Assembly (NCBI RefSeq): GCF_005887615.1
Contig: NZ_VANS01000002.1
Location: forward strand, 620,001-684,000
DNA: 64,000 nucleotides
DNA from: Sulfitobacter sabulilitoris
Lineage (GTDB): Bacteria; Pseudomonadota; Alphaproteobacteria; Rhodobacterales; Rhodobacteraceae
Direction of reading: 5' to 3'
In this document: positions 5,319 to 13,715 of the stretch, piece by piece
How positions within the stretch are numbered: position 1 is the stretch's first letter
How the letters are laid out: each line of letters starts with the position of its first letter
Notes under the pieces: generated by a model
Seen by the model: the letters and a program-made list of their open reading frames with translations, nothing else
Database searches by the model: none
What the model was told of the DNA's origin: nothing
Program-made: the position numbers and the translations under genes

Positions 5319-6281
5319 TCAGGCGGCAAGACCCTTGGACCCGAGGTCGAGAAATTTCTGGCGCCGATCATCGATCAGTTCGCTGCGGCTTTTGCCGGAA
5401 AGCTCCTTGAGCATCGCCTGGATGGATTTGCCGACCGCTTCGATGGCTTTGGCGGGATCGCGGTGCGCACCCCCCAGCGGTTCGTCGATCACGCGGTCCG
5501 TCACGCCCAATTGGCGCAGGTCCTGCGCGGTCAGGCGCAGTGCTTCGGCCGCTTCGCGCATCTTCTCCGCGTCTTTCCACAGGATCGATGCGCAGCCTTC
5601 CGGGCTGATCACCGAATAGACCGAATGTTCCAGCATGGCGACGCGATTCGCGGTGGCAAAGGCGACGGCACCGCCCGATCCGCCTTCGCCGATCACCACG
5701 GCGATCAGCGGCACGCCGATCTGCAGACATTTTTCGGTTGCACGCGCGATCGCCTCCGACTGCCCGCGCTCCTCGGCGCCCTTGCCGGGATAGGCGCCCG
5801 GGGTATCGACCAGCGTGATGACCGGCAGGCCAAAGCGGTTTGCTAGATCCATCAGGCGGATCGCCTTGCGGTAGCCTTCGGGCCGCGCCATTCCGAAATT
5901 CCGCTCGATCCGCGACTTGGTATCGTTGCCTTTCTCGTGGCCGATCACCATGACCGGGGTATCGCCCAGCCGTGCCAGTCCGCCCATCACCGCGTGGTCG
6001 TCGGCGAAATTGCGATCGCCGGCCAGCGGAGTGTATTCGTCGAACAACGCTTCGATGTAGTCCTTGCAATGCGGTCGCTCGGGGTGGCGCGCGACCTGGC
6101 ACTTGCGCCAAGGGGTCAGCGATTTGTACAGGTCGATCATCATCGCTTTGGCCTTTGCGTCCAACGCCGCGGCTTCCGATGTGACGTCCATGTCTTCATT
6201 GTTGCGGGCCAGCGCGCGCAATTCCTCGGCCTTGCCTTCGATCTCGGCGAGGGGTTTTTCGAAATCCATATACTGTGTCAT
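5319..6281 (-). CDS. accA: Acetyl-CoA carboxylase carboxyltransferase subunit alpha
   Basis: A 320-residue AccA, the usual length. It pairs with AccD to move the carboxyl group from carboxybiotin-BCCP to acetyl-CoA, giving malonyl-CoA for fatty-acid synthesis. Conserved segments include [13 protein letters not shown] at the N-terminus, [19 protein letters not shown] in the middle and the oxyanion-forming GEGGSGGA. The start at 6281 matches the family N-terminus; the open frame extends far upstream but without family similarity. It stands alone and converges with the GntR gene. Confidence 0.97.
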
Positions 6282-6829: not shown

Positions 6830-7786
6830 TCAGCCCTTGATCATCTCGGACTGGCGGACGATGACCTCGGCCTGCTTGATGCTGGCGATATCCACCAGGC
6901 GCCCCTTGTAGACCGCGGCGCCTTCGCCCTTGGCGGTGGCTTTCTCCATCGCCTCGAGAATGGCGCGCGCCTCGGCGACGGCCTCGTCCGAGGGGGTGAA
7001 GACCTCGTTCGACAGGGCGACCTGTTTGGGATGGATCGCCCATTTGCCGACCATGCCCAGGGTCGCGGAGCGGCGCGCCTGCGCGCGGAAGCCCTCGTCA
7101 TCGGAAAAATCGCCAAAGGGGCCATCGACCGGCAGAACGCCGTGGGTCCGGCAGGCGGCCACGATCGCCGCCTGCGCCCAGTGCCACGGGTCGGAGTAAT
7201 GCCGCTGTCCATCGTGGTGCATGTAGTAGTTGTCCTGGGTTCCGCCGATGCCGGTGGTCTGCATTCCCATCGACGCGGCGAAATCCGCGGCGCCGAGGCT
7301 CATCGCCTGCAACCGGGGGGAACTGGCGGCGATCTCCTCGACATGGGCAATGCCCGCGGCGCTTTCGATGATGACCTCGAAGTTGATCTTTTTCGTGCGG
7401 CCCTTGGCGGTTTCGACCGCCGTGGCCAGCGCGTCGACGGCATAGACATCCGCCGCGCAGCCCACCTTGGGGATCATGATCTGATCCAAACGGTCGCCCG
7501 CCTGTTCCAGCAGGTCGATCACATCGCGATACCAGTAGGGCGTGTCGAGACTGTTAATCCGCACCGACAGCGTTTTCGTGCCCCAGTCGATGTCGGAAAT
7601 GGCCGCGATGACGTTGGCGCGCGCGCTGTCCTTGTCGGACGGGGCCACGCTGTCTTCGAGGTCGAGGTTGATCACGTCGGCGTCGCTTGCCGCCATTTTC
7701 TCGAAGATGGCCGGGCGCGATCCGGGTCCGAACAACTGGCAGCGGTTGGGGCGTGCGGGGGCTGTGGGCTGAATACGGAAGCTCAT
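6830..7786 (-). CDS. mcl1: L-malyl-CoA / beta-methylmalyl-CoA lyase
   Basis: A 318-residue CitE-like TIM-barrel lyase, the same length as Rhodobacter Mcl1. It reversibly cleaves L-malyl-CoA to acetyl-CoA and glyoxylate, and beta-methylmalyl-CoA to propionyl-CoA and glyoxylate, in the ethylmalonyl-CoA pathway of acetate assimilation. Mg-binding and active-site segments are visible: [21 protein letters not shown] and [18 protein letters not shown]. The start at 7786 has GAAAGG upstream and gives the family N-terminus MSFRIQP. The rest of the pathway is not in this window. An AT-rich stretch at 7800-7850 probably holds its promoter. Confidence 0.93.
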
Positions 7787-8052: not shown

Positions 8053-9054
8053 ATGATCGAAACCCCGTACCTTCTTTTTCTGGGCGACGCGCCGGATCAA
8101 CTGGCCGCGAAAGTGGCGCAGGGCATCAAGGACTGGCGGCCCGAAAACGCCGTCGGCCAGTTCCGGATGGATGGGTGTCAGGCCGATGTGCGCCTGCCCG
8201 ACATGACGCTGGAGGAGGCGAAGGCCGCCGGCGCCCGGACGCTGGTGATCGGCGTGGCGAATCGCGGCGGCAAGATCAGCGCCGCCTGGCGCGAGGTGCT
8301 GGTCGCGGCGCTCGAGGCGGGCTTTGACCTGGCGAGCGGATTGCACAACCTGTTGCGCGACGTGCCGGAACTGGCCGCGGCGGCGCAGGCGAACGGGCGG
8401 TCGCTGCACGACGTGCGCGTGCCGTCGGTGGAGTATCCGATTGCCAATGGCGTCAGGCGGCGTGGCAAGCGCGTGCTGGCGGTCGGCACCGATTGTTCGG
8501 TGGGCAAGATGTACACCGGGCTGGCGCTGGACGCCGCGATGAAGGCGCGGGGCATGAAGAGTTCCTTCCGCGCCACCGGGCAGACCGGGATCCTGATCAC
8601 CGGAGAAGGCATTCCGCTGGACGCGGTGATCGCGGATTTCATGGCTGGATCGGTGGAATGGCTGACCCCCGACAATGACGAGGATCACTGGGACATCATC
8701 GAGGGGCAGGGCAGCCTGTTCCACGTGTCCTATTCCGGCGTCACGATGGCGCTGATCCACGGCGGGCAGCCCGACGCGCTGATCCTGAGCCACGAGCCGA
8801 CACGCAAGACGATGCGCGGCCTGCCGGATTACGCGCTTCCGTCGCTGGAGGCGCTGCGCGAGACGGCGTTGACGATGGCGCGGGTGGCCAACCCCGCCTG
8901 CGAGGTGATTGGCGTGTCGGTGAACACGCAGGCCTTGGGCGAGGATGAGGCGTTGGCCTATCTGGCGCAGGTCGAGCGTGAGACGGGGCTGCCAACGGTC
9001 GATCCGTTCCGACAGGGGGCGGCGCGTTTGGCGGACGCGCTGGAACGCCTGTGA
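8053..9054 (+). CDS. dgcN: D-glutamate N-acetyltransferase DgcN (DUF1611)
   Basis: A 333-residue DUF1611-family protein. The N-terminal Rossmann-like part is followed by a P-loop-like motif, GTDCSVGK at 145-152, and a C-terminal half containing EGQGSLFHVSYSGV. The family includes DgcN, which acetylates D-glutamate in a marine proteobacterial D-Glu catabolic route. AAGGAG lies just before the ATG. The next gene is the matching racemase dgcA, and a D-amino-acid aminotransferase follows, so the three form one transcription unit. The call rests on family plus the dgcN-dgcA pairing. Confidence 0.85.
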   Translation: MIETPYLLFLGDAPDQLAAKVAQGIKDWRPENAVGQFRMDGCQADVRLPDMTLEEAKAAGARTLVIGVANRGGKISAAWREVLVAALEAGFDLASGLHNLLRDVPELAAAAQANGRSLHDVRVPSVEYPIANGVRRRGKRVLAVGTDCSVGKMYTGLALDAAMKARGMKSSFRATGQTGILITGEGIPLDAVIADFMAGSVEWLTPDNDEDHWDIIEGQGSLFHVSYSGVTMALIHGGQPDALILSHEPTRKTMRGLPDYALPSLEALRETALTMARVANPACEVIGVSVNTQALGEDEALAYLAQVERETGLPTVDPFRQGAARLADALERL

Positions 9055-9072
9055 GGCCCGCACTTGCGGCCA

Positions 9073-9117
9073 CCGCCGGAGCCTCCGGCGGGAGTATTTT
9101 GGACCCAAAGAAGAGGA
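9073..9117 (+). repeat. GCCTCCGGCGG element, copy 1
   Basis: CCGCCGG (9073-9079) and CCGGCGG (9085-9091) form a 7-bp stem with a five-base loop, followed by GAGTATTTT and a purine-rich CAAAGAAGAGG. It lies just after the dgcN stop. Its purine end (AAGAGG) serves as the ribosome-binding site of dgcA. Related copies are at 14837, 36759, 36930 (inverted) and 41328. Confidence 0.7.
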
Positions 9118-9121
9118 TGTG

Positions 9122-10087
9122 ATGCGCATTGAGGTAAGCCGGGATATCTTTCCGCTGGCGCAGGTGTTCACGATCAGCCGTGGATCCCGGTCTGAGGCGC
9201 AGGTGCTGACGGTTCGAATCGGTGAGGGCGATTTGACCGGTTGGGGCGAATGCGTGCCCTACGCGCGCTACGACGAGACGCTGGATACTGTGGCGGCGCA
9301 GATCGAGGCGCTGCCGGGCGATGTGACGCGTGCGGCGCTTTACGATCTGTTGCCGGCGGGGGCCGCGCGCAACGCGGTGGATTGCGCGCTGTGGGATCTT
9401 GAGGCCAAGCGCGCGGGCAGGCGGGTCTGGGAGCTGGCCGGGCTGCCCGAACCGGGGCCGGAGATCACGGCATATACCCTGTCGTTGGACAGCCCGGAGA
9501 AGATGCAGGCGCAGGCCGCGCGAAACGCGCATCGGCCACTGCTGAAGATCAAGCTGGGCACACCCGACGACATGCCGCGGCTGGAGGCGGTGCGCGCCGG
9601 TGCGCCGGCCTCGCGGATCATCATCGACGCCAACGAGGGCTGGTCGGCGGAGGTCTATGCGGACCTGGCGCCGCACCTGCTGCGCCTGGGCGTCGACCTG
9701 GTCGAGCAGCCCTTGCCCGCGGGCGATGACGAGGCGTTGATCGGGATGGACCGGCCGGTGCCTGTCTGTGCGGATGAAAGTTGTCACGACCGCGGGTCGT
9801 TGGCCGGGCTGAAGGGCAAATACGATGTGATCAACATCAAGCTGGACAAGACCGGCGGTCTGACAGAGGCGCTGGCGCTGCGGGCAGAGGGCATTGCGCA
9901 GGGGTATGGCGTGATGGTCGGCTGCATGGTCGGGTCGAGCCTGGCGATGGCGCCCGCGACGCTGGTGGCGCAGGGGGCGACGATCACCGACCTTGACGGG
10001 CCACTGTTGTTGGCCGAAGACCGTGAGATGGCCTTGAAGTTTGACGCCCGCGGGGTGCATCCGCCCAGCGCGGCCCTCTGGGGATAG
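9122..10087 (+). CDS. dgcA: N-acetyl-D-glutamate racemase DgcA (enolase superfamily)
   Basis: A 321-residue enolase-superfamily enzyme of the dipeptide-epimerase type. The capping domain spans about residues 1-110 and the barrel follows. Expected catalytic groups are present: KIK at 142-144, metal ligands Asp169, Glu195 and Asp218, and the second Lys near 240 (NIKLDKTGG). DgcA converts N-acetyl-D-Glu made by DgcN to the L form. The start at 9122 follows AAGAGG inside the repeat element. Adjacent muconate/dipeptide epimerase functions are possible by family alone; the dgcN neighbour favours DgcA. Confidence 0.85.
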   Translation: MRIEVSRDIFPLAQVFTISRGSRSEAQVLTVRIGEGDLTGWGECVPYARYDETLDTVAAQIEALPGDVTRAALYDLLPAGAARNAVDCALWDLEAKRAGRRVWELAGLPEPGPEITAYTLSLDSPEKMQAQAARNAHRPLLKIKLGTPDDMPRLEAVRAGAPASRIIIDANEGWSAEVYADLAPHLLRLGVDLVEQPLPAGDDEALIGMDRPVPVCADESCHDRGSLAGLKGKYDVINIKLDKTGGLTEALALRAEGIAQGYGVMVGCMVGSSLAMAPATLVAQGATITDLDGPLLLAEDREMALKFDARGVHPPSAALWG

Positions 10088-10095
10088 GAGAGACG

Positions 10096-10959
10096 ATGAT
10101 GCGCACGGTATATGTGAATGGCGAGTACCTGCCCGAGACTGAGGCGAAGGTGTCGATCTTTGATCGCGGGTTCTTGATGGCCGACGGCGTCTACGAGGTG
10201 ACGTCGGTGCTGGATGGGAAGCTGATAGATTTCGAAGGTCATGCCCTGCGGTTGCAGCGGTCACTGGACGAGTTGGACATGCGCAACCCGATCTCGAGCG
10301 AGGATCTGCTGGAGGTTCATCGGGAGTTGGTGCGCCTCAACGGGATCGACGAGGGGATGATCTATCTGCAGATCACGCGCGGTGCGCCGGGCGACAGGGA
10401 TTTCGTTTTTCCCGATCCCGAAACGACCGATCCGACGATCGTTCTGTTTACTCAGAACAAGCCAGGACTGGCCGACAATCCGGCGGCGAAACAGGGGATC
10501 AAGGTCATCAGCATCGAAGACATCCGCTGGGGGCGGCGCGATATCAAGACGGTGCAACTGCTCTATCCCAGCATGGGCAAGATGATGGCGAAAAAGGCGG
10601 GCGCCGACGACGCATGGATGGTCGAGGACGGCGTGGTGACCGAGGGCACAAGCAACAACGCCTATATCGTCAAGGGCAACCGGATCATCACCCGCAGCCT
10701 GTCGCAGTCCATTCTGCACGGTATCACGCGTGCCGCCGTGCTGCGCTTTGCCCGCGAAGCGCAGATGGAGGTCGAGGAGCGTGATTTCACCATCGCCGAG
10801 GCGCAGGAGGCCGATGAGGCCTTTGTCACCTCGGCCAGCACTTTCGTGATGCCTGTGGTCGAGATCGACGGGGTCGCGCTTGGCGGCGGTGTGCCGGGAC
10901 GGGTCGCGCCACGCCTGCGCGAGATCTATCTGGACGAGAGCCGCAAGGCCGCGATCTGA
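10096..10959 (+). CDS. dat: D-amino-acid aminotransferase (PLP fold type IV)
   Basis: A 287-residue class-IV aminotransferase, the family's normal length. The PLP-binding lysine is Lys151 in RRDIKTVQLL, and the phosphate-binding and substrate loop GVVTEGTSNNAYI follows. It interconverts D-alanine or other D-amino acids with D-glutamate. It begins eight bases after dgcA and is surely in the same operon, so it may feed or drain the D-Glu pool used by DgcN and DgcA. Branched-chain aminotransferase relatives share the fold, but D-AAT features and context favour this call. Confidence 0.88.
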   Translation: MMRTVYVNGEYLPETEAKVSIFDRGFLMADGVYEVTSVLDGKLIDFEGHALRLQRSLDELDMRNPISSEDLLEVHRELVRLNGIDEGMIYLQITRGAPGDRDFVFPDPETTDPTIVLFTQNKPGLADNPAAKQGIKVISIEDIRWGRRDIKTVQLLYPSMGKMMAKKAGADDAWMVEDGVVTEGTSNNAYIVKGNRIITRSLSQSILHGITRAAVLRFAREAQMEVEERDFTIAEAQEADEAFVTSASTFVMPVVEIDGVALGGGVPGRVAPRLREIYLDESRKAAI

Positions 10960-10985
10960 CATCTGCGGCGGCTTGCGGTCCCTGC

Positions 10986-11021
10986 CCGGAATTCTGAAAG
11001 TTCCGGTCCGTTTCCCTTGCA
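10986..11021 (+). terminator. CCGGAA/TTCCGG hairpin with T-rich tail (copy B)
   Basis: CCGGAA (10986-10991) pairs with TTCCGG (11001-11006) and is followed by TCCGTTTCCCTTGCA. It ends the dgcN-dgcA-dat operon, facing the convergent DUF1244 gene. Stem and 15-base tail are almost identical to the element at 5262-5298. Confidence 0.6.
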
Positions 11022-11044
11022 AGACGACGGGCGGTGCGGTCGGG

Positions 11045-11371
11045 TCAGGATTTCCTTTCGACGTTTTCGGTGAAAGCGGTCTTGAAGGCATCCTGTTGCG
11101 TTCCGCTGGCCTCGGTCTGGTAGGTGGCCTTCCACTCGTCCATCGTCATGCCGTAGAACAGTTCGCGCGCCTCGTCCTTGGTCATCTCCATGCCGCGTTC
11201 CGCCGCTGCTTCCTGATACCAGCGGGACAGGCAGTTGCGGCAAAACCCCGCCAGGTTCATCAAGTCGATGTTCTGCACATCGGTGCGGTCCTGCATCAGG
11301 TGCTGCTGCAGGCGCCGGTAGGCCGCGGCCTGCAGTTCGATTTCGGTCTGGGTCGGGGTGGCATCGGGCAT
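11045..11371 (-). CDS. DUF1244 family protein
   Basis: A 108-residue soluble protein with the DUF1244 signature GFCRNCLSRWYQEAA (two cysteines) followed by YGMTMDEWKATYQ. AGGAG lies ten bases before the start at 11371; the slightly longer frame to 11398 would run into the next gene. It follows the N-formylglutamate amidohydrolase gene on the same strand by 23 bases, so both are probably one transcript. The function of the family is unknown. Confidence 0.9.
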   Translation of the reverse strand: MPDATPTQTEIELQAAAYRRLQQHLMQDRTDVQNIDLMNLAGFCRNCLSRWYQEAAAERGMEMTKDEARELFYGMTMDEWKATYQTEASGTQQDAFKTAFTENVERKS

Positions 11372-11394
11372 GTCGGAAGCTCCTGTTGGGTCAG

Positions 11395-12132
11395 TCAAAG
11401 ATCGGTCCGGGCCAGAACCGTTTCAAGTATCGGCGCCATCCGGTCGGCCCAGGCGGTCTGGCCGTAGTCCTCTGCGATCAGGTCGTTGCGCAGTTCGATC
11501 AGCACGTGCGGCCGGCCGTGGCGCAGGGCGTGGCGGTCCATCGTGTCGCCGCGCATTCGGCCGGTGTAGGGTTCGTTATCGCCCAGGGTCAGGTCCGGCT
11601 CTGCTGCCAGATGCGCCATCAACGGGTCGGCGAACCGCCGGTCGTCGGCATACAGGACGCCGATCTGCCATGGCCGGGGCGGTCGCCCGCGCAACTGCGG
11701 CGTAAAGCTGTGAACCGACACGATGACCGTGCCCGGACGCGCGGCCAGATCGGCCAGCGCGGCATGGTAGGGCCGGTAGCACAGATCGAGCCTGCGTTCG
11801 CGTTCTGCCGCGTCGGCGTGGCGGTTGCCGGGGATCAACGTACCGTCGTAGAGCTTCATCAGAAGCGTCGGGTCGTCTTCGCCGCGGTTCGGGTCAACGA
11901 CAAGCCGCGAGAAATTGGACAGGATCACCGGGCTGTCGAGCCGCTGCGCCAGCGCACGGCTGACCCCGGCGGCGCCGATGTCGAACGCGATATGCCGGTC
12001 CATGTCCGCGGGCAACAGGCCCAGGTCACCGCCTGCGACCGCCGGCGGAACCAGGTTCGACGCGTGGTCGCATACGACAAGCCAGCGCCCTGGTCGGTCG
12101 AGGCCATCGCTAAAAAAAGGAGTGTATGTCAT
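11395..12132 (-). CDS. N-formylglutamate amidohydrolase-family enzyme
   Basis: A 245-residue protein of the N-formylglutamate amidohydrolase (HutG/FGase) family. Likely zinc-binding segments are CDHASN near the N-terminus and VSVHSFTP in the middle; HVLIELRNDLI is typical of the C-terminal part. The family hydrolyses N-acylated glutamate or related acyl groups. No hut genes are nearby. It lies convergent to the D-glutamate cluster, which makes N-acetyl-L-Glu, so a deacylase role in that route is conceivable but unproven. It is divergent from pyk. Confidence 0.88.
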   Translation of the reverse strand: MTYTPFFSDGLDRPGRWLVVCDHASNLVPPAVAGGDLGLLPADMDRHIAFDIGAAGVSRALAQRLDSPVILSNFSRLVVDPNRGEDDPTLLMKLYDGTLIPGNRHADAAERERRLDLCYRPYHAALADLAARPGTVIVSVHSFTPQLRGRPPRPWQIGVLYADDRRFADPLMAHLAAEPDLTLGDNEPYTGRMRGDTMDRHALRHGRPHVLIELRNDLIAEDYGQTAWADRMAPILETVLARTDL

Positions 12133-12208
12133 TTACCTTACACCTTAGTCATCGCACTGTTAGGGCAGTTGCCTGAAAATGAAAACCGGGTGATAAGCCC
12201 TGGGCGTC

Positions 12209-12220
12209 GTTAGCGATAAC
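12209..12220. promoter_or_regulatory. LacI-type operator-like palindrome upstream of pyk
   Basis: GTTAGCGATAAC has GTTA/TAAC arms around a CG-containing centre, the usual form of LacI-family operators. It lies about 50 bases before the pyk start, in the divergent region with the amidohydrolase gene. In Rhodobacter a LacI-type regulator (CceR) controls central carbon genes, which makes it a candidate binder; the exact consensus was not checked. Confidence 0.45.
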
Positions 12221-12269
12221 ATCGCAATGATTTGGGCGCGCCACGACAGAAAAAAGGATGCATGATAGG

Positions 12270-13715
12270 ATGAGACGGCTTCGCAATGTCAAGATCGTGG
12301 CGACCCTCGGTCCGGCGTCGGACACTTACGACATGATCCACGCGCTGCATGTGGCCGGCGCGGATGTCTTCCGTTTGAACATGAGCCACGGAAGCCATGA
12401 CGAGATTCGCGAAAAGCACCGGATCATTCGGCAGATCGAACAGGATACCGGATCGACGATCGGTATCCTCGCGGACCTTCAGGGGCCGAAATTGCGCGTC
12501 GGTGTCTTTGCACAGGAAAGCGAGCAGCTTGACGAAGGCGATGCATTTCGGCTCGATCTGGACAACGCCGAAGGCGACCGGACCCGGGTCTGCCTGCCGC
12601 ACCCCGAGATTTTCGCGGCGCTCGAACCGGGGGCCAGCCTGTTGGTCAACGATGGCAAGATCCGCCTCAGGGTCGAGAGGTGCGGCGACGACTACGCCGA
12701 CTGCACGGTGGTCGCGGGCGGTGTGATCTCCAATCGAAAGGGCGTGAACGTGCCCGACGTCATGCTGCCGTTGGCCGCGCTCAGCGACAAGGACCGCGCC
12801 GATCTGGAATTCGTGTGCGCGCTCGGCGTGGATTGGCTTGCCCTGTCCTTTGTCCAGCGGGCCGAAGACGTCGTCGAGGCGCGCGATCTGGCCAAGGGCC
12901 GGGCCGCGATCTTGTCGAAAATCGAAAAACCCTCTGCGGTGACGCATTTCGAGGCGATCCTCGCCGCCAGCGACGGGATAATGGTGGCGCGCGGGGATCT
13001 GGGCGTTGAATTGCCCGTCCAGAATGTGCCGCCGATCCAGAAGCGACTGGTCCGCAAATGCCGTACGGCGGCAAAGCCCGTTATCGTGGCGACCCAGATG
13101 CTCGAGAGCATGATCGAAAGCCCGATGCCGACCCGTGCCGAGGTGTCGGACGTGGCAACCGCGATCTATGAGGGGGCCGACGCAGTGATGCTGTCGGCGG
13201 AATCGGCGGCGGGCAGCTATCCGGTCGAGGCCGTGACGACGATGAACAATGTCGCCATCGAGGTCGAACAGGATCCGACCTATACCCAGATCATCGAAGC
13301 CTCGCGTATCACCGAAGGCAAGTCGATCGCCGATGGCATCGTGTCGGCCGCGCGCGAGATCGCCGAGACTACCGACATCAAGGCGATCTGCTGCTTCACC
13401 CAAAGCGGGACGACAGCGCTCTTGACGGCGCGCGAACGCCCCCGCGTTCCGATCATCGCGATGACGCCGCTTGTCGGCACGGCGCGGCGCCTGGCGCTAA
13501 GCTGGGGGACGAACTGCGTACTGACCGAAACGCTGGACAGGTTCAAGATGGCTGTGGTTGCCGCGGCACGCGCGGCGCGTTCCGAAGGGTTTGCCGGACC
13601 GCAGGATCAGATCGTCGTCACCGCCGGGGTGCCGTTCAACGTGCCGGGCAGCACGAACATCCTGCGGGTCGCGCCCTGCGACGAACGTTTGATTTTCAGC
13701 ACCGATCCGGAGTAG
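12270..13715 (+). CDS. pyk: Pyruvate kinase
   Basis: A 481-residue pyruvate kinase, converting PEP and ADP to pyruvate and ATP in lower glycolysis or the Entner-Doudoroff route. The N-terminal barrel begins RRLRNVKIVATLGPAS. Active-site segments include RLNMSHG, ILSKIEKPSAV with the catalytic Lys, GIMVARGDLGVE and the peptide MLESMIESPMPTRAEVSD. The C-terminal allosteric domain starts near residue 345. The start at 12270 is spaced about ten bases from AAAAAGG; an in-frame ATG at 12258 lies too close to it. Expressed alone or with the small gene that follows. Confidence 0.97.
   Translation: MRRLRNVKIVATLGPASDTYDMIHALHVAGADVFRLNMSHGSHDEIREKHRIIRQIEQDTGSTIGILADLQGPKLRVGVFAQESEQLDEGDAFRLDLDNAEGDRTRVCLPHPEIFAALEPGASLLVNDGKIRLRVERCGDDYADCTVVAGGVISNRKGVNVPDVMLPLAALSDKDRADLEFVCALGVDWLALSFVQRAEDVVEARDLAKGRAAILSKIEKPSAVTHFEAILAASDGIMVARGDLGVELPVQNVPPIQKRLVRKCRTAAKPVIVATQMLESMIESPMPTRAEVSDVATAIYEGADAVMLSAESAAGSYPVEAVTTMNNVAIEVEQDPTYTQIIEASRITEGKSIADGIVSAAREIAETTDIKAICCFTQSGTTALLTARERPRVPIIAMTPLVGTARRLALSWGTNCVLTETLDRFKMAVVAAARAARSEGFAGPQDQIVVTAGVPFNVPGSTNILRVAPCDERLIFSTDPE

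Follow-up and report, generated by a model that had tools for sequence, protein, structure and literature searches.

Which of the genes between positions 8053 and 12132 of this DNA work together on D-glutamate (D-Glu), and is an amidohydrolase gene at the end of that segment one of them? The window, a stretch of 64,000 nucleotides, comes from contig C12 (NZ_VANS01000002.1, positions 620,001 to 684,000) of the 3.94 Mb genome of Sulfitobacter sabulilitoris, a member of the Rhodobacteraceae within the Alphaproteobacteria. On its plus strand, dgcN (8053-9054; D-glutamate N-acetyltransferase, 333 residues) is followed after 67 bp by dgcA (9122-10087; N-acetyl-D-Glu racemase of the enolase superfamily, 321 residues) and after another 8 bp by dat (10096-10959; class IV D-amino-acid aminotransferase, 287 residues). 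On the minus strand lies a gene of the N-formylglutamate amidohydrolase family (FGase; 11395-12132; 245 residues). An earlier note on this DNA proposed that the four genes complete a route from D-alanine (D-Ala) to L-Glu, with FGase removing the acetyl group. All four are present as open frames at or within 8053-12132. We judge it fairly probable that dgcN, dgcA, and dat form a D-amino-acid salvage operon without a dedicated deacylase, and that the FGase gene belongs to a block with a DUF1244 gene and the pyruvate kinase gene pyk.

The assignment of DgcN and DgcA is upheld by curated models. DgcN scores 556.3 bits against the equivalog NF041892 (cut-off 480), contains the N- and C-terminal DUF1611 domains (PF07755 and PF17396), aligns with PDB 7xrj across residues 1-331 (576 bits), and is the single DgcN match in its genome. 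DgcA scores 500.9 bits against the equivalog NF042940 (cut-off 400). Since both proteins pass the curated equivalog cut-offs, the core is, as judged from sequence, the published DgcN-DgcA pathway, to which the DgcR regulator also belongs. K144 and K240 of DgcA align with K162 and K268 of Bacillus subtilis YkfB, a lysine pair to which parts of PMC5808125 ascribe catalytic roles. This pair, a DxD motif, and the positions that we take to be the metal ligands are invariant in 28 aligned DgcA sequences.

The two genes stay together in other genomes. We searched each protein in a family panel of 120 genomes and compared positions, telling orthologs from paralogs by identity; dgcN is carried by 94 genomes, dgcA by 105, and dat by 116. 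The dgcN count excludes a match in G035 (33 percent identity, a paralog), and one of the two dgcN pieces of G108 is used. dgcN and dgcA are at most 3 kb apart in 90 of the 94 dgcN genomes. In a class panel of 142 genomes, DgcN is matched at E <= 1e-80 in 38, of which 36 are outside the family. Genes at these 36 loci were called with our own scan of open reading frames (at least 90 amino acids, blastp), which overlooks short genes and those truncated at the end of a contig. dgcA adjoins dgcN in 34 of the 36, and in the other two the contig ends within 1.6 kb of dgcN on that side. A further set of named loci comprises the best 80 of a longer list and is biased to relatives of the search query; at least one of its loci, L340, is the same sequence as class-panel locus L179. 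At four loci of Chelativorans and Nitratireductor (L313, L315, L325, and L344), dgcN of about 70 percent identity has no dgcA match within 8 kb, and a different racemase may serve there.

The third gene, dat, is placed with dgcNA by gene order. dgcA and dat lie within 6 kb of each other in 102 of the 105 dgcA genomes of the family, on the same strand in 101, and on other contigs in the remaining three. The order dgcN-dgcA-dat recurs in Vibrio plantisponsor, V. ruber, an uncultured Vibrio, and Psychromonas sp. SA13A, four gammaproteobacterial loci in which no match to accA, HpcH, DUF1244, FGase, or pyk is found. The linkage of dat that the earlier note had seen in one genome is thus a recurrent one. 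Dat passes the D-amino-acid transaminase subfamily model NF005209 (371.3 bits, cut-off 320) and PF01063, and all 76 Dat sequences compared retain the residues equivalent to Lys145, Tyr31, and Arg98 in the Bacillus enzyme.

The surroundings of FGase are different. FGase and the DUF1244 gene (11045-11371, minus strand; PF06844, 122 bits) are 23 bp apart and convergent with dat, and are therefore transcribed opposite to dgcNA-dat. They are divergent from pyk (12258-13715, plus strand; NF004886, 679 bits, cut-off 623), with 125 bp between the starts of FGase and pyk. The earlier note correctly described FGase as convergent and nearby but missed the intervening DUF1244 gene, which we place outside the D-Glu pathway. 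FGase is matched in 110 family genomes, ten of which have weak paralogs only (three at 39-43 percent identity) and are dropped. In 98 of the 100 that remain, FGase is within 3 kb of pyk, and it is divergent from pyk in all 98.

In 50 of the 94 dgcN genomes, FGase also lies no more than 12 kb from dgcN, a proximity that favors the deacylase proposal and counts against our division of the segment. We attribute it to the linkage of FGase with pyk, and a control set separates the two. There are 31 genomes with dgcN, FGase, and pyk in which dgcN and pyk are over 20 kb apart or on different contigs; in 29 of them FGase adjoins pyk, in none is it near dgcN, and in two it is near neither. The 18 cases on other contigs may reflect assembly breaks instead of rearrangements, but the 11 genomes with all three genes on one contig are free of that doubt, and FGase stays with pyk in 11 of 11. 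Presence tells the same: FGase is found in 81 of the 94 genomes with dgcN vs 19 of the 26 without it (no association, Fisher p = 0.14), and 13 of the 94 dgcN genomes have no FGase ortholog.

Beyond the family, FGase of the window type is found at none of the 36 dgcN loci. At 24 FGase loci outside the family (from 24 of 64 matching genomes, the best-scoring ones but one), 14 have DUF1244, 12 have pyk, and none has dgcN. Among the best 80 named loci, eight contain the window-type FGase, with pyk in the locus every time; the Ruegeria loci L333, L338, and L345 carry the block in full. Gene order hence identifies FGase as part of an FGase-DUF1244-pyk block and as probably not part of the D-Glu pathway. 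FGase is not conserved near dgcNA in other genomes, an outcome that the earlier note itself had set against its proposal. The block (window 11045-13715) recurs in other families of the class (loci L189-L212). The nearest case noticed outside the family is G422, in which a single contig has FGase about 14 kb from dgcN, beyond the fetched locus. A literature search found no paper joining two of the terms "N-formylglutamate amidohydrolase", "pyruvate kinase", and "DUF1244". Passages of PMC3605383 and PMC12017989 contain nothing relevant to the locus.

What FGase could catalyze is less narrowly defined. It passes the gathering score of PF05013 (157.3 vs 28.9 bits). Its structural model (mean predicted local distance difference test score 89.7) shares the fold of the FGase-family protein Atu2144 (2odf; Z 31.1, 34 percent identity), but the protein is far under the cut-off of the HutG equivalog TIGR02017 (24.5 vs 278.75 bits) and, unlike HutG, is tied to DUF1244 and pyk. 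The next match is 2q7s, annotated as N-formylglutamate amidohydrolase (Z 21.7), followed at Z 12.5 and 12.2 by poly-gamma-glutamate hydrolases, at Z 12.0 by muramoyl-alanine amidases, and at Z 10.3 by aminoacylase 3, with carboxypeptidases among the matches at Z 10-12.5. An alignment of 25 sequences has numerous invariant His, Glu, Asp, and Arg positions. The fold alone shows no function; the model is compatible with acyl-amino-acid hydrolysis, or with several other reactions. Gene order removes the genomic reason for proposing FGase as the deacylase and leaves the chemistry on N-acetyl-L-Glu itself possible. That the convergent FGase finishes the route by deacetylating N-acetyl-L-Glu is, in our judgment, very unlikely.

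How, then, would a pathway encoded by dgcN, dgcA, and dat run? Dat would transfer the amino group of D-Ala, or of another D-amino acid, to 2-oxoglutarate and yield D-Glu, which DgcN would acetylate and DgcA would racemise to N-acetyl-L-Glu, the last two steps following from the equivalog assignments. Of the route from D-Ala to L-Glu proposed earlier, the part from D-Ala through D-Glu to N-acetyl-L-Glu is plausible through the linked dat, and the finishing step by FGase is not supported by gene order. ArgJ can transfer acetyl from N-acetyl-L-Glu onto ornithine, and ArgE can free the acetyl group. Since these two enzymes could dispose of N-acetyl-L-Glu, a dedicated deacylase need not be required. 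The S. sabulilitoris genome has one ArgJ match and twelve M20-domain matches; of the nine M20 proteins scanned, two are above the acetylornithine deacetylase (ArgE) cut-off of 297.7 bits, at 350.5 and 380.0. N-acetyl-L-Glu is most likely consumed by these housekeeping arginine enzymes, either by ArgJ and ArgE together or by ArgE directly.

A dedicated enzyme might instead be sought beside dgcNA in other genomes. Our scan of open reading frames at the 36 loci outside the family finds no conserved hydrolase general to them. One candidate is a HutG-like FGase, a paralog of the window gene whose member in this genome is at G000:C12:11573-12268. In 3 of the 36 loci a gene of this subfamily follows dgcA downstream in convergent orientation, as it does in 8 of the best 80 named loci, six of them from Thalassospira, with one record common to the two sets; two Nitratireductor loci have a remoter member upstream of dgcN. 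In six loci examined, though, the same GNAT acetyltransferase-like gene comes next (family confirmed for four), and in two of the six a response-regulator gene is beside the HutG-like FGase (family confirmed in both). Because these genes accompany the HutG-like FGase, its linkage to dgcA may be incidental as well. In our genome some 616 kb separate it from dgcN, and the four members scanned score 105.7-114.5 bits, far below the HutG cut-off of 278.75. We regard this paralog as a highly improbable deacylase for the pathway.

Several observations weigh against a dedicated dgcN-dgcA-dat salvage operon. Of the 36 loci outside the family, only 1 has dat near dgcNA, and among the best 80 named loci dat is present in 21. 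Within the family, a dat match is found in 11 of the 15 genomes that lack both dgcN and dgcA, and because it is kept there, dat has a separate role. Dat fails the D_amino_aminoT equivalog TIGR01121 (230.8 vs 277.45 bits). His100 is Phe in 76 of 76 Dat sequences; in canonical D-amino-acid aminotransferases, according to an excerpt of PMC10003956, it forms the carboxylate trap with Y31 and R98 (motif RxH), and non-canonical enzymes use different residues. The window Dat fits neither residue set fully. Because of the substitution and the score below the equivalog cut-off, it is uncertain which D-amino acids Dat prefers. Co-transcription is not certain either, as a terminator-like hairpin (9073-9091, plus strand) lies in the gap between dgcN and dgcA. 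The hairpin may be a chance occurrence, because the pattern scan that found it returns five such sites where shuffles give 2.6 +/- 1.7, near chance level. A GGAG[TA]ATTT sequence between dgcN and dgcA is a candidate element; 4 of 47 closer relatives have it, and none of the 94 others does. Finally, ArgE and ArgJ have no direct tie to the D-Glu pathway.

The presence of dat in genomes without dgcN and dgcA is also what would be expected if Dat supplied D-Glu or D-Ala for the cell wall, with DgcN and DgcA draining excess D-Glu and D-Ala not being catabolized at all. Transamination is, in general, reversible. The 8-bp spacing between dgcA and dat and the recurrence of the same trio in Vibrio and Psychromonas argue instead for a shared pathway. 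In addition, PMC11747546 describes a Rhodobacteraceae strain with a D-amino acid transaminase, EC 2.3.1.312, and EC 5.1.1.25 that grows on D-Glu and D-Ala. We therefore consider a purely biosynthetic Dat unlikely and retain the salvage operon.

A second question concerns DgcA itself, since some genomes keep dgcA without dgcN. In 11 of the 120 family genomes, dgcA and dat are present with no DgcN match at E <= 1e-30; dgcA is close to dat in ten of them and on a different contig in G008. The absence of dgcN counts for less in G008 and G118, as these genomes are 82-84 percent complete. All 11 orphan DgcA proteins are stop-free over the matched part and keep the lysine pair, the metal-ligand positions, and the DxD motif; in that of G012, Ser replaces Cys at another checked position. 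The nearest dgcN-less relative of S. sabulilitoris, G055, is listed as one contig and 100 percent complete, and because its congeners keep dgcN, the loss looks recent. A substitute acetyltransferase at the site of the lost gene (locus L050) can be rejected: 191 bp separate the HpcH match from the dgcA match, and the site is unfilled. G055 has no DgcN match at E <= 1e-30, and other acetyltransferases elsewhere in this genome were not searched for. In G077, a short stretch adjoining dat (L065:8062-8244) matches only residues 261-321 of DgcA; this genome has no dgcN or dgcA match, and the stretch is probably a remnant of a lost operon.

Orphan DgcA has diverged faster than paired DgcA. Measured against Dat and Pyk from its own genome, its identity has a mean residual of -5.5 points, negative in 10 of 11. 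The comparison of orphan (n = 11) with paired DgcA (n = 90 of the 94 paired genomes) gives a Mann-Whitney p of 8e-5, which is too small because the species are related. The direction is clear in these sequences and is compatible with either decay or a change of substrate. The latter is plausible because the standout structures for the DgcA model are 4gfi (Z 48.6), whose title refers to homology to dipeptide epimerase, and the E. coli L-Ala-D/L-Glu epimerase 1jpd (Z 41.0). Below these come further dipeptide epimerases (Z 37-39) along with muconate cycloisomerase (38.3) and N-succinyl Arg/Lys racemase (37.9), and N-acylamino acid racemases score lower (Z 34-35). The divergence of orphan DgcA hints at a second substrate.

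DgcA shares with the L-Ala-D/L-Glu epimerases (YcjG, YkfB) the fold, the aligned lysine pair, the metal-ligand positions, and the C-terminal DxD (D290 and D292 in DgcA), which presumably binds the amino group of the dipeptide. All 28 DgcA sequences have this motif, and it lines up with the DxD found in the epimerases of E. coli and B. subtilis. Such epimerases are held to serve murein recycling, as stated in portions of PMC5808125. DgcA might accordingly be, or also be, a dipeptide epimerase in an operon for recycling peptidoglycan peptides to which DgcN was an added branch, and the 11 genomes with intact catalytic and metal positions in DgcA and no dgcN match would agree with this. DgcA differs from the epimerases in that it is under the cut-off of the E. 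coli-type equivalog NF011708 (307.8 vs 343 bits) and its gene is paired with dgcN, which it adjoins nearly everywhere outside the family. The activity of 4gfi is unproven, the structures below 1jpd are tied among several enzyme kinds, the divergence of orphan DgcA could mean decay, and two of the 11 genomes are incomplete. On balance we find it rather doubtful that the operon serves peptide recycling in the first place. We propose only tentatively, as a conjecture still well short of even chances, that DgcA is bifunctional, acting as both N-acetyl-D-Glu racemase and L-Ala-D/L-Glu epimerase, and that lineages which lost dgcN keep dgcA-dat for the salvage of murein dipeptides and D-Ala.

Other genes recur around dgcNA. 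In the window, an HpcH/CitE-type lyase gene (6830-7786) and accA (5319-6275), both on the minus strand, are divergently upstream of dgcN; accA is found in 30 and HpcH in 34 of 60 family loci, and neither is known to us to be connected with D-Glu. At the 36 loci outside the family, gamma-glutamyltranspeptidase recurs in 8, a hexapeptide-repeat protein in 6, a MATE transporter in 5, and the HutG-like FGase discussed above in 3. The gamma-glutamyltranspeptidase gene is divergent to dgcN (L156, L157, L162, L163, L169, L174, L178, and L179), within about 1.3 kb in seven of the eight loci, with the MATE transporter in five; its family is confirmed for three. The enzyme could free D-Glu from gamma-glutamyl compounds. 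The hexapeptide-repeat gene is directly upstream of dgcN (L155, L175, L177, L184, L185, and L186) and, in the two of six scanned, resembles PaaY and gamma carbonic anhydrase, with scores under the cut-offs of both.

The locus can be compared with two known systems. The D-glutamate catabolic pathway of DgcN and DgcA was reportedly described by Yu et al. 2023 (ISME J 17:537); both enzymes are adjacent here and above equivalog cut-offs, and in the window dat comes directly after them. Pseudoalteromonas CF6-2 is said to catabolize D-Ala by a D-Ala aminotransferase (Yu et al. 2022, AEM 88:e02219-21), reportedly with the same proposed first step, D-Ala to D-Glu; in contrast, the aminotransferase gene is linked to dgcNA here, and dgcNA would replace the glutamate racemase step. 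Our analysis adds counts for the linkage of dat, excludes FGase as a linked partner, and identifies genomes that have dgcA and lack a dgcN match.

Peptidoglycan-derived D-Glu and D-Ala belong to the marine organic matter that is hard to use, as excerpts of PMC12363236 and PMC10845958 indicate; the former treats dgcN as the key gene in a racemisation pathway that is irreversible, and the latter mentions the DgcN-DgcA pathway for Shewanella. From the gene-order test it is apparent where the missing deacylase should not be sought, and the genomes with dgcA but without dgcN offer a ready test of the role of DgcA without DgcN. If DgcA is bifunctional, they would form a natural loss series in which an enolase-superfamily enzyme shifts between two substrates. 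The dgcN-dgcA-dat operon would let one bacterium funnel both D-Glu and D-Ala into L-Glu.

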